From an uncultured Bacilli bacterium (lineage in GTDB: Bacteria > Bacillota_I > Bacilli_A > RF39 > UBA660): a stretch of DNA of 64,000 nucleotides. The stretch lies in NCBI GenBank assembly GCA_949451605.1, contig CASTSB010000007.1, positions 1-64,000 on the forward strand, given 5' to 3'. Every line of letters starts with the position of its first letter. The stretch's first letter is position 1. Shown here one piece after another: positions 56,435 to 62,159 of the stretch. The position numbers and the translations under genes were made by a program. The notes under the pieces are model-generated. The model searched no databases and was not told where the DNA came from. It was given only the letters and a program-made list of their open reading frames with translations.

Positions 56435-56468
56435 TAAACAAGGATATGTTATTTACTAACATATCCTC
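56435..56468 (-). terminator. hairpin at the end of the SipW-type gene
   Basis: GGATATGTTA/TAACATATCC overlapping the stop, followed by T-rich sequence on the minus strand. Confidence 0.6.
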
Positions 56469-57702
56469 TAATTTTTACAAGTCTTTCAATCCTATCTAAT
56501 TCAAATACATTTTTATTATCATAATTATTAGGAATTTTTTGCATAAAACTAATCAATAATTTTAATTGTTTTTTACCATAAGAATCGTCTTTTTTTATAC
56601 TTTTAAAATTATTATTTTTATCTATTAATATTTTATATTTCATTATTTTAAAAACACCATCAAAGAATTCTTCATCATTATATAGTATGACATAACAAAG
56701 TATTTTCAAAAAGAAATATATTGGCATTTCATATAATCTATTTCTTAAATTGTCATATAATCCTACCTTATCTAGATCGTAATCATAAATTTCTTTAAAT
56801 GTCGGATGTTTTACTTGTTCTTCCAAATTATCATTATCAGAAATATTAACAATATTAACTAAAGTATAAACATATTTATATTTTTCCAGCCACTTTTTAT
56901 TAATCTTCGTTGTTTTTAAAGAATCATTCTTTACTCTTAATAAATTAACAATAAGTTCAATTAATTCCTTTTCTCTATCTTTTCTAGAATTATTTTCTTT
57001 AATTACAATTCGATTACTTTCAACATCTATTACTTCTTCACCTATAACTTCTAGTTCTTCTTCATATGCAACTTCTTCCTGAGACTTTTTCATTTTTTCA
57101 ATATCTTCCATTGGAATTGAAACAGTAAGACCAGTTGACTTTTCTTCTCCCTTTTTTTTAGGACTACTAAAAACATCTTCTGGTAAGACATCATAATGCC
57201 TTATGTTATTATTATCAATAACTTCTTCATCTAATAAATACTTTTTTATAAATTTATCAAAATTAATTAACAATAAAAATATAATAACAATAAATATTGC
57301 GGCGATAAGTTTAAATAAAAAACTAGGAGAAAAAATAAATATAACCTTTCCAATTACTGATTCCAATTTTACAGCATCATCTTGTGTATTATTCGCATCA
57401 CCTTGAGTAATAATTTCATTACCCTTTTTACTTATAAGTCTGTGAGTAACAACTTCTCCTCTTTTATCTACAAAAGAAACAACCTCATTCTCATTAACAT
57501 CCTTTGTAACTTTTACAATAATAAAATCATTAACTTCAATTGTTCCTGTCATACTTGCAGTTTTAACTTTAAAAAAGCTATATCCAAAAACATTAGTATA
57601 TTTATTACCAAGTATTTGAGTTGATACAAATGTATATAAAGTTAATGAAACAATAACTGTAAGTAAACTATAACCAATAACTTTTAAAATCTTCTTAATC
57701 AT
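56449..57702 (-). CDS. SipW/ER-type signal peptidase I with large C-terminal extension
   Basis: 417 residues; typical SipW is about 190. The peptidase part is N-terminal: one membrane anchor, nucleophile Ser50 in 'KTASMTGTIEVNDF', His87 in 'VVTHRLISKK' (His in place of the bacterial Lys, as in ER-type enzymes) and Asp102 in 'TQGDANN', then a second membrane segment (about 125-145). Residues 150-417 are a cytoplasmic acidic/helical extension without recognised domain. SipW enzymes process TasA/CalY-type proteins, such as the one at 17.3 kb. ATG follows GAGGTA. Confidence 0.85.
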   Translation of the reverse strand: MIKKILKVIGYSLLTVIVSLTLYTFVSTQILGNKYTNVFGYSFFKVKTASMTGTIEVNDFIIVKVTKDVNENEVVSFVDKRGEVVTHRLISKKGNEIITQGDANNTQDDAVKLESVIGKVIFIFSPSFLFKLIAAIFIVIIFLLLINFDKFIKKYLLDEEVIDNNNIRHYDVLPEDVFSSPKKKGEEKSTGLTVSIPMEDIEKMKKSQEEVAYEEELEVIGEEVIDVESNRIVIKENNSRKDREKELIELIVNLLRVKNDSLKTTKINKKWLEKYKYVYTLVNIVNISDNDNLEEQVKHPTFKEIYDYDLDKVGLYDNLRNRLYEMPIYFFLKILCYVILYNDEEFFDGVFKIMKYKILIDKNNNFKSIKKDDSYGKKQLKLLISFMQKIPNNYDNKNVFELDRIERLVKIRGYVSK

Positions 57703-57730: not shown

Positions 57731-57739
57731 ATTATATCA
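57731..57739 (-). promoter_or_regulatory. extended -10 promoter element for the SipW-type gene
   Basis: TGATATAAT on the minus strand, an extended -10 (TGnTATAAT). Its TGA is the stop codon of the upstream hypermodification-family gene. No clear -35 is seen. Confidence 0.5.
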
Positions 57740-58684
57740 TAATTTCCATTTAGGTGGGTATATATATTCAATAGTTTTATTTTTTGAAACATATTTTTTC
57801 TTAATCTTAGTTCTATTAGATTTCAGATTTGGAATTTTTTCTCGACAATATTTATCTAATTCACAAAATATATTTTGACAATCAATTAGCTGTAATTTTC
57901 GATTTGGTAGACCAAAAAACTTAAGATTTAATCTTTCAAATTCACTATCTTGATGTTTATACATATACATTATAATTTCTTCATAAGAATAATTACCTCT
58001 ACTTATAAAACACTTATCTATTCCCCTTTTTGATCCAGGACCAACAACACAAAATTCATCTTCAGAGAAATTAACCACTTCACTATAGTTAATATCAGTA
58101 ATTAATTGATAAGCCATAAAGTCTCCAATTAAGGGATAAGACTTTATTATATTAAAAGCTTCTTTCATACTTTTACTATTAACAATAGAATAATCAATAT
58201 TATCTTCTATAAACATTTTATAAAGTAGTGCCAAATGATTATCATGCTTTCTATCATAACCAAATGCCTTGGTTGCACAAGAAATATAAGCATCATTATA
58301 AATTTTAATATTATGAGTAATCGCATTATTTAATAATTTAGAACATTTTCTAAAGTCAAAACTTTCTAATGTAATATCTCCAAATTCTAAGGTAATTAAT
58401 TCCCAAGTAGATTCTTTATTAAATAACTTAAAAAGTATAATTCTAAAAATCATATCGCGATCACTATATTTTCTTCCATTATAAATAACATTTCTCAAAA
58501 GATATTGACTTACTCTATCATTAACTCTATAAGAATTGCAAAATTTATAGTTTTGCAATATTTCGTCTTTAGTCCAAGGAGCAGGTAATCCACTCTTCTT
58601 CTTATTAAATATATTTTGTCTTTCACACGCAAAATACCAATATAAATCGTAAATATTTTCTCTTTTTATTAATTCTTTCTTCAT
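57737..58684 (-). CDS. HMUDK/ADDT family protein (phage thymine-hypermodification family)
   Basis: 315 residues matching the family annotated as 5-hmdU DNA kinase helical domain / alpha-glutamyl-putrescinyl-thymine pyrophosphorylase. Visible blocks: 'YWYFACERQNIFNKKKSGLP' then PWTKDEIL, 'NSYRVNDRVSQYLLRNVIY', 'FRIILFKLFNKESTWELI', 'MAYQLITDINYSEVVNFSED', 'VVGPGSKRGIDKCF' and 'LIDCQNIFCELDKYCRE'. In phages such proteins help make hypermodified thymines. The fold is helical, related to DNA glycosylases. Stops at TGA, unlike almost all other genes here. ATG follows AAAGGAG. Family is firm; role in this cell is unknown. Confidence 0.85.
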   Translation of the reverse strand: MKKELIKRENIYDLYWYFACERQNIFNKKKSGLPAPWTKDEILQNYKFCNSYRVNDRVSQYLLRNVIYNGRKYSDRDMIFRIILFKLFNKESTWELITLEFGDITLESFDFRKCSKLLNNAITHNIKIYNDAYISCATKAFGYDRKHDNHLALLYKMFIEDNIDYSIVNSKSMKEAFNIIKSYPLIGDFMAYQLITDINYSEVVNFSEDEFCVVGPGSKRGIDKCFISRGNYSYEEIIMYMYKHQDSEFERLNLKFFGLPNRKLQLIDCQNIFCELDKYCREKIPNLKSNRTKIKKKYVSKNKTIEYIYPPKWKL

Positions 58685-58752
58685 AATTATTCTCCTTTAA
58701 AAAAATTATTTTCAAAAATCTAATAAAAAGTCAAACATTTTTATAAAAATAA

Positions 58753-58783
58753 ACAAAAAGAAAAAGGATAATAAATTATCCTA
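58753..58783 (-). terminator. intrinsic terminator
   Basis: GGATAATT/AATTATCC hairpin followed by T-run on the minus strand, after the 58.8-kb anchored protein gene. Confidence 0.8.
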
Positions 58784-59566
58784 TCTTCCTTGAGCTTTTG
58801 AAACTTCTGATGATAAGTCATAAAAACTTCCATCTTTTTTAGCAGCTATAGTAGTTACTCCACCGCCACCCATAGATGTTGACATATTAGCAGTATAAAG
58901 TTTTATTACATCATTTACTCCTGCCGCAGTAGCTGAAACTGTAAAATCAGAGTTATTACTATAATTCATTACAAAATATAAATTTCCTTTAGTATCTGTT
59001 TTTCTAACAAACATAGGTGTAAATTGAACTGTTCCATCACTCATTATATAAAATAATGTTATACCCATAGCATCTTGTCCGATACCACCAACAAAAGTAT
59101 CTTTAATTTCTTTATTAAATCCAGTTATTTGATAAGTTTTAACTTCTGGAGCATAAGCAGATGCTGTAGATAAAGGACCAAACTTATTCCAATCTATTGT
59201 TAATGTAATACTTTTTTTATCAGTATTTATTTGCATTGCTAATCCATAGTTACCAGGAATATCAGATGGATCTGAGTAATTTGCACTACTATTTAAACAT
59301 TTAGTAAGATCAAGTGGTTTAACTACATCATCTTGAACATTACTGTTTCCTACTTTATCATCACTACTATTTTTATCTTTTTCCTTTTCTTTTTCTGATT
59401 CTTCATTTGGATTTTTTAAATTACTATCTCCAAATATTATCCCTTTGTCATAACAAATATAACCGGCCATCGCAATAATTATAATTACTAAAATAGTTAC
59501 TAATATTGCCATTCCTTTATTCTTTTTCTTTCCACTATTATCTTGAAAATTAAAATTATCTTCCAT
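58781..59566 (-). CDS. single-pass anchored protein with beta-rich external domain, unknown
   Basis: About 261 residues from ATG 59566, just after GGAGAGTG. Cytoplasmic basic start, membrane segment near 20-42, charged Lys/Glu/Asp linker ('EESEKEKEKDKNSSDD') and an external beta domain ('ITLTIDWNKFGPLSTASAYA', 'YFVMNYSNNSDFTVSATAAG'). Not recognised. Similar anchored architectures occur several times in the window. Confidence 0.6.
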   Translation of the reverse strand: MEDNFNFQDNSGKKKNKGMAILVTILVIIIIAMAGYICYDKGIIFGDSNLKNPNEESEKEKEKDKNSSDDKVGNSNVQDDVVKPLDLTKCLNSSANYSDPSDIPGNYGLAMQINTDKKSITLTIDWNKFGPLSTASAYAPEVKTYQITGFNKEIKDTFVGGIGQDAMGITLFYIMSDGTVQFTPMFVRKTDTKGNLYFVMNYSNNSDFTVSATAAGVNDVIKLYTANMSTSMGGGGVTTIAAKKDGSFYDLSSEVSKAQGR

Positions 59567-59654
59567 AAAACACACTCTCCTATCATCATAATAATAACCT
59601 ATTTAATAAGAAATTTAAAGATTATTGGAAAACTTCTTAATATTGACAGTAAAG

Positions 59655-61991: not shown

Positions 61992-62067
<76 letters not shown>

Positions 62068-62073
62068 AATTGT

Positions 62074-62159
62074 TGGTGCATGTGAAGGGACTTGAACCCA
62101 TACATAGTTACCTACTGCAGATTTTGAGTCTGCCGCGTCTACCATTCCGCCACACATGC
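62074..62159 (-). tRNA. tRNA-Leu (CAA)
   Basis: Minus-strand cloverleaf of 86 nt with long variable arm (class II). Acceptor GCATGTG/CACATGC, anticodon stem GCAGA/TCTGC with loop CTCAAAA giving anticodon CAA, which reads TTG. CCA is encoded. Six bases from tRNA-Thr. Confidence 0.95.

Follow-up and report, generated by a model that had tools for sequence, protein, structure and literature searches.

The 64,000-nucleotide stretch of DNA analyzed here (the window) encodes a protein of the HMUDK_hel family on its minus strand (window 57737..58684; ATG at 58684, stop codon ending at 57737). The gene stands alone, without a P-loop kinase domain, and it is probably an accessory gene whose product handles bases. 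In the explanation that we favor, to which as a whole we give a little less than an even chance, this is an intact gene under selection that encodes an HhH-GPD-like base-handling protein with a pocket for C5-substituted pyrimidines, and it confers an anti-phage benefit. We infer that the positively charged helical domain would have a glycosylase-like pocket, lined by invariant residues, in which it would bind a C5-substituted pyrimidine of the 5-hmdU type, whether this is part of DNA or a nucleotide; the bound base would then be acted on directly or presented to a partner enzyme. The benefit would likely be interference with phage DNA metabolism.

Family, integrity, and fold of the window protein

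The open reading frame, on the minus strand of the window, has no internal stops and encodes an all-helical product of 315 aa with a pI of 9.1 and a net charge of about +13. The source genome of 1.33 Mb contains a single copy. An AAAGGAG ribosome-binding site lies immediately 5' of the ATG at 58684; it forms part of a putative leader (window 58686..58735, minus strand) that also includes two overlapping promoter-like sites, all of these elements being consensus matches. Based on Pfam analysis, residues 10-288 of the protein align to positions 2-280 of the 281-position profile PF18723, HMUDK_hel (5-hmdU DNA kinase, helical domain), with an E-value of 1.4e-101 and a score of 340 bits, where the cut-off is 25; the protein also matches phrog_2396 (E 1.6e-54). 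Judged by these profile scores, the family match is not due to chance, by a wide margin. A previous reading of this DNA from the sequence alone (hereafter, the sequence-only reading) had assigned the protein to the thymine-hypermodification family, and the full-length PF18723 match bears out that assignment; the four sequence blocks quoted at the time (PWTKDEIL, DRVSQYLLRNVIY, GPGSKRGIDKCF, and DCQNIFCELDKY) are all present. In the Pfam search, the protein consisted of the helical domain alone, with the fused P-loop kinase part absent, and PADLOC 2.0 returned no matches for it.

In phages, as the Pfam names also indicate, 5-hydroxymethyl-dU chemistry involves the HMUDK_hel module together with a P-loop kinase. 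The phage 5-hmdU DNA kinases (SP10, PhiW-14, Vi01, M6-like) resemble the window protein in that they match PF18723 over its full length, have a like fold, and share 15 invariant residues with it. However, the matching phage copies (443 records) are mostly ~21-30% identical to the window protein over long alignments, and the window protein has no fused or adjacent P-loop kinase, ADDT, radical SAM, or hydroxymethylase. In phage LKO4, a P-loop kinase gene (PF18748) precedes HMUDK_hel, and the genes nearby include a thymidylate synthase, an ADDT transferase, and one that weakly matches radical SAM; in phage Vi01, HMUDK_hel comes after a MazG-like gene. Whereas the phage pathway comprises a dUMP hydroxymethylase, a kinase, and an amino acid:DNA transferase, the window neighborhood contains none of these.

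We aligned 19 family members from gut Bacilli, Bacteroidetes, cyanobacteria, Proteobacteria, Actinomycetota, haloarchaea, and phages; this alignment identified 15 invariant positions, and the window protein has the invariant residue at all 15. These residues include R22, N50, R53, D56, K146, G187, D197, G215, G217, C274, E275, and K278. Gly187 is hairpin-like and is carried by a segment, YPLIG-F-AYQ, that looks like a helix-hairpin-helix. The invariant D197 is located 10 residues past Gly187. At E208, 21 residues past Gly187, 16 of the 19 members have Glu, whereas two archaea and one phage have Pro, then Asp, at this position. Using the Nei-Gojobori method, we obtained dN/dS values of 0.05-0.13 when close solo copies were compared in pairs and 0.09-0.11 for pairs of radical-SAM-linked copies; values for the window copy against its relatives were 0.17-0.23, with dS near saturation. 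On these sequence comparisons, the window gene is a working gene under purifying selection. The sequence-only reading had considered that it might be a remnant; because the protein retains all 15 invariants and purifying selection acts on its relatives (dN/dS 0.05-0.23), this suggestion is not upheld, and the intact frame likewise rules out a pseudogene.

AlphaFold2, using 56 sequences from the window and the related loci, predicted a structure composed entirely of helices (pLDDT 91.9, pTM 0.90). In a VIA-align comparison, the top structural match was QNG1/DUF2419, a queuosine-5'-monophosphate salvage enzyme (Z 11.6, rmsd 5.4, 236 residues). The second was PUGT, the 5-PmdU glycinyltransferase of phage PaMx11 (Z 9.6, rmsd 3.9, 215 residues), and a run of HhH-GPD DNA glycosylases followed (AGOG, OGG, Mag1, AlkA, and endonuclease III; Z 7-9.3); Z values of 8-12 are modest for a helical protein. 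QNG1 is the nearest fold, yet it is only 8% identical to the window protein. PUGT (gp46) has a similar fold with 7% identity, and the amino acid:DNA transferase domain is classified as PF18724, a separate Pfam family from HMUDK_hel. Foldseek identified nothing significant among solved structures (best E 0.14), and searches by sequence, with either a single sequence or a diverse profile, found no solved-structure relative; among viral models, the SP10 5-hmdU DNA kinase matched with E 2.9e-14 and TM 0.84. The all-helical model and the HhH-GPD matches lend moderate support to the earlier description of the protein as helical and DNA-glycosylase-like, which appears to be a fair fold label. The bacterial anti-phage DNA glycosylases Brig1, Brig2, and Brig3, which cut modified bases out of phage DNA (in the case of Brig2, modified thymine among them), provide a precedent. 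However, the best structural matches of Brig1 are uracil-DNA glycosylases; these are absent among the structural matches listed for the window model, although their absence excludes nothing.

Window neighborhood and operon partners of cellular relatives

The downstream neighbor (window 56449..57702, minus strand), which begins 34 nt past the HMUDK_hel stop codon, encodes a protein of 417 aa that weakly matches S24/S26 signal peptidases. We found no terminator-like site between the two genes, which are possibly co-transcribed; nevertheless, the signal-peptidase-like gene is context only, since a congener (G003) has it without HMUDK_hel. The upstream gene (window 58781..59575, minus strand) encodes a 264-aa membrane protein. 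With a weakly signal-peptidase-like protein on one side and a membrane protein on the other, the original description of the locus as lying between envelope-type genes is roughly right. Two tRNA genes (window 61995-62159, minus strand) are located between ScpB and the accessory genes and mark a possible integration hotspot.

Among the ten nearest neighbors, we found no hydroxymethylase, P-loop kinase, ADDT, radical SAM, or phage genes, and no integrase, prophage, or defense genes lie beside the window copy. PADLOC analysis of these ten neighbors identified one methyltransferase, by a generic-looking model (mad2). Within the source genome, profile searches, run without a positive-control genome, gave no match to the PF18748 kinase or to MazG_C, and the sole thymidylate synthase found is one unlinked ThyA-type gene on a different contig. 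The sequence-only reading had noted a chromosomal setting without the hydroxymethylase and kinase partners of the phage pathway, and both the neighborhood and the genome searches agree with it. An active prophage with the full pathway was rejected, as the ten nearest neighbors hold neither partner nor phage genes. Because the window gene has no dedicated partner, its product would either act alone on a C5-modified pyrimidine or use the host ThyA or Tmk, such that any partner in this genome would be a housekeeping enzyme.

Cellular relatives elsewhere are found in operons. The gene order HTH - ImmA/IrrE - thymidylate synthase - HMUDK_hel - MazG/MazG_C occurs in Rhizobium, Sinorhizobium, Nostoc, and Allocoleopsis, and the order patatin - HMUDK_hel - MazG_C - TIR occurs in Gloeothece; MazG_C was verified by Pfam in Allocoleopsis and Gloeothece, and record annotation was used for the other genomes. 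Parabacteroides has TIR - Nmad2 - HMUDK_hel - radical SAM, a Bacteroidetes MAG has TIR/MazG_C/TIR/SLOG/HMUDK_hel/ThsB-TIR/Nmad2 (with TIR found four times overall), and Haloarcula has a dTMP kinase with HMUDK_hel. In the records of these cellular operons, HMUDK_hel is annotated as “nucleotide kinase domain-containing protein” or “putative DNA base hypermodification protein.” The partners (thymidylate synthase, MazG, Nmad2, TIR, SLOG, and ImmA) are building blocks of nucleotide-centered conflict systems. The HMUDK_hel proteins of operons with thymidylate synthase, MazG/MazG_C, Nmad2, TIR, SLOG, or ImmA/IrrE belong to the same branch as the window copy; however, the window copy lacks those partners.

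Further arrangements were observed in individual records. On two alphaproteobacterial plasmids, HMUDK_hel is located between a DnaQ-type exonuclease gene and dnaE (L112:5318-10688 and L114:5309-11221), which suggests a plasmid-replication variant; the exonuclease - HMUDK_hel - dnaE order is found in Erythrobacter and Sphingosinicella. A contig from a viral collection (L136) has the order ACP-like - HTH - ImmA/IrrE - TS-like - [thymidylate-kinase-like + HMUDK_hel] - radical SAM, in which the ACP, HTH, and kinase names were assigned by eye. The bracketed gene (L136:7260-8954) encodes a 564-aa protein that joins a thymidylate-kinase-like P-loop region to HMUDK_hel; a phage 5-hmdU DNA kinase would be expected to have this architecture, which here occurs within a cellular-type operon. 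In the window's own subclade, a 1086-aa Mrr-nSTAND3 gene (L042:6739-9996) ends 1 nt before HMUDK_hel.

In the DefensePredictor study, a 5-hydroxymethyluracil kinase domain (PF18723 or PF18748) and thymidylate synthase are among the newly validated defense domains, and aGPT-Pplase, MazG, and MazG_C are predicted but unvalidated (PMC13092281). Using PADLOC, we found that near neighbors of gut-Bacilli copies match defense models no more often than far neighbors; with no defense neighbors and no such enrichment, a defense island at the window or at the gut-Bacilli copies was rejected. The sequence-only reading had raised the possibility of a defense factor acting on modified phage DNA, and by analogy to distant relatives such a role is plausible. 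The neighborhood survey divides on this point: distant cellular members, which occur in TIR, SLOG, MazG, Nmad, and ImmA operons, provide indirect evidence for defense, whereas the window locus and its gut-Bacilli kin lend it no support. More broadly, it is conceivable, though we would not expect it, that a bacterial immunity family that has so far escaped description is built around the cellular HMUDK_hel proteins and modifies bases or nucleotides. Such proteins would work solo with host ThyA/Tmk, as a radical-SAM pair, or in a full operon with thymidylate synthase, kinase, MazG, and radical SAM, and they would either introduce a C5-modified pyrimidine that is toxic to phage DNA metabolism or destroy bases of this kind.

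The alternative that survives best is a free-nucleotide enzyme that would hydrolyze or otherwise process a modified 5'-mononucleotide in the manner of QNG1, for salvage or signaling. This activity would suit the best structural neighbor (QNG1, Z 11.6) as well as the partners found elsewhere, which are nucleotide enzymes (thymidylate synthase, Tmk, MazG, dCTP deaminase, SLOG, and Nmad2). However, the strongly positive charge of the window protein points away from it, as do the phage members of the family, which are part of a DNA kinase (the SP10 match). In addition, the next fold, PUGT, is an amino acid:DNA transferase, and the substrate is not set by fold alone. We regard a free-nucleotide enzyme as rather unlikely.

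The radical-SAM/SPASM pair of gut Bacilli

One scan identified 137 bacterial relatives of the window protein, and the best 80 of these 137 come mostly from gut Bacilli and Clostridia MAGs, with 66-74% identity. In 36 of these 80 gut-Bacilli loci, a radical-SAM/SPASM gene is located directly upstream of HMUDK_hel on the same strand, and the gap between the two genes is usually 1-12 nt. The two genes form a tight unit in these 36 loci (among L006-L085), for example at L011:8986-9987. We describe this gene pair of gut Bacilli first-hand; no description of a radical-SAM/SPASM and HMUDK_hel pairing was found in the literature searched. The radical SAM protein of Parabacteroides (L091) scores 79 bits to the gut model, and that of the viral-collection operon (L136) scores 132 bits.

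The HMUDK_hel protein of the pair is close to that of the window, yet the window genome lacks the radical-SAM partner. A profile of the partner scores >640 bits in two paired genomes searched; with the same profile, the specific partner was absent from the window genome (E 0.001) and from the other solo genomes searched. The best radical-SAM scores in solo genomes were <50 bits and represent weak generic matches. An unlinked radical-SAM partner in the window genome was thereby ruled out at E 0.001.

The window gene could instead be the stripped-down rest of such a pair, which has lost its partner and whose function is now partial or changed, or which uses an unlinked enzyme. In the tree, paired and solo copies are interleaved, with 10 changes between the two states compared with 26 in shuffles; this pattern, the frequency of the pair among the best 80 of the 137 relatives, and the missing partner in the window and other solo genomes searched would all be expected if partners had been lost. 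Selection speaks against this alternative: solo copies are constrained to the same degree as paired copies (dN/dS about 0.05-0.13 in both), so the solo copies appear to be functional without the partner. We consider the lost-partner origin unlikely, and we retain the intact base-handling gene as the preferred explanation.

Distribution and mobility of cellular copies

HMUDK_hel is an accessory gene with a patchy distribution. The family is present in 4 of 60 relatives and in 4 of 392 genomes of the phylum; it was found in none of five congeners, four of which have genomes that are ≤82% complete. Relatives are carried by 22 plasmid records; copies on plasmids of other phyla are 37-49% identical to the window protein, and those of the cellular operons 37-53%. 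No homologue in E. coli was identified when the Acinetobacter copy served as query in a distant DNA search.

In a maximum-likelihood tree, a long supported branch (98/93) parts the cellular copies from four phage copies, although one archaeal copy falls outside the cellular group and both phages and archaea have very long branches. A single-sequence search of IMG/VR found no viral copies close to the gut clade; a profile search of IMG/VR identified eight contigs with cellular-type copies (37-49% identical). Three viral-collection contigs of 150-300 kb (L139, L140, and L141) carry a solo cellular-type HMUDK_hel; in L141, a phage-portal-like gene precedes it, and in L139, a dnaE-like gene is nearby. 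The presence of cellular-type copies on these contigs indicates that exchange with viruses occurs, whichever its direction. The sequence-only reading had suggested a domesticated phage gene. This origin is not established, as the cellular copies form their own branch and some viral contigs carry copies of the cellular type.

Congener G003 has the interval ScpB ... signal-peptidase-like - lipoprotein - methyltransferase - RluA - glycosyltransferase, from which HMUDK_hel is missing. A more distant genome (L050) does have HMUDK_hel in this ScpAB-to-methyltransferase interval, with the genes for the lipoprotein and the methyltransferase downstream of it; this copy is 73% identical to that of the window, and most of its neighbors are similar (60-80%). 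Taken together, G003 and L050 suggest a site that certain lineages have kept and that has repeatedly been lost or filled. Other solo copies are located at unrelated sites. In one of the gut-Bacilli loci (L029:3881-5105), HMUDK_hel is flanked by two serine-recombinase pieces, with a 15-nt perfect inverted repeat (CATAATAGCACCAAC) at the bounds; because the recombinase pieces overlap in different residues, a simple insertion that duplicated its target does not account for this arrangement.

That mobile elements or phages merely carry the gene along, without any role for it in the host, is very unlikely: its patchiness, its many unrelated sites, the recombinase-flanked copy with its inverted repeat, and the cellular-type copies on viral contigs (some >150 kb) are what cargo would leave, but the gene is under purifying selection, its GC content is like that of its surroundings, its neighbors include no integrase or prophage genes, and L050 holds a copy in the same interval.

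The thymine-hypermodification module of phages also has a separate, strongly conserved cellular branch. Its smallest versions, namely the solo form and the pair of gut Bacilli, are hence the easiest to test, and they could reveal whether bacteria counter phages by making, reading, or removing modified thymine.
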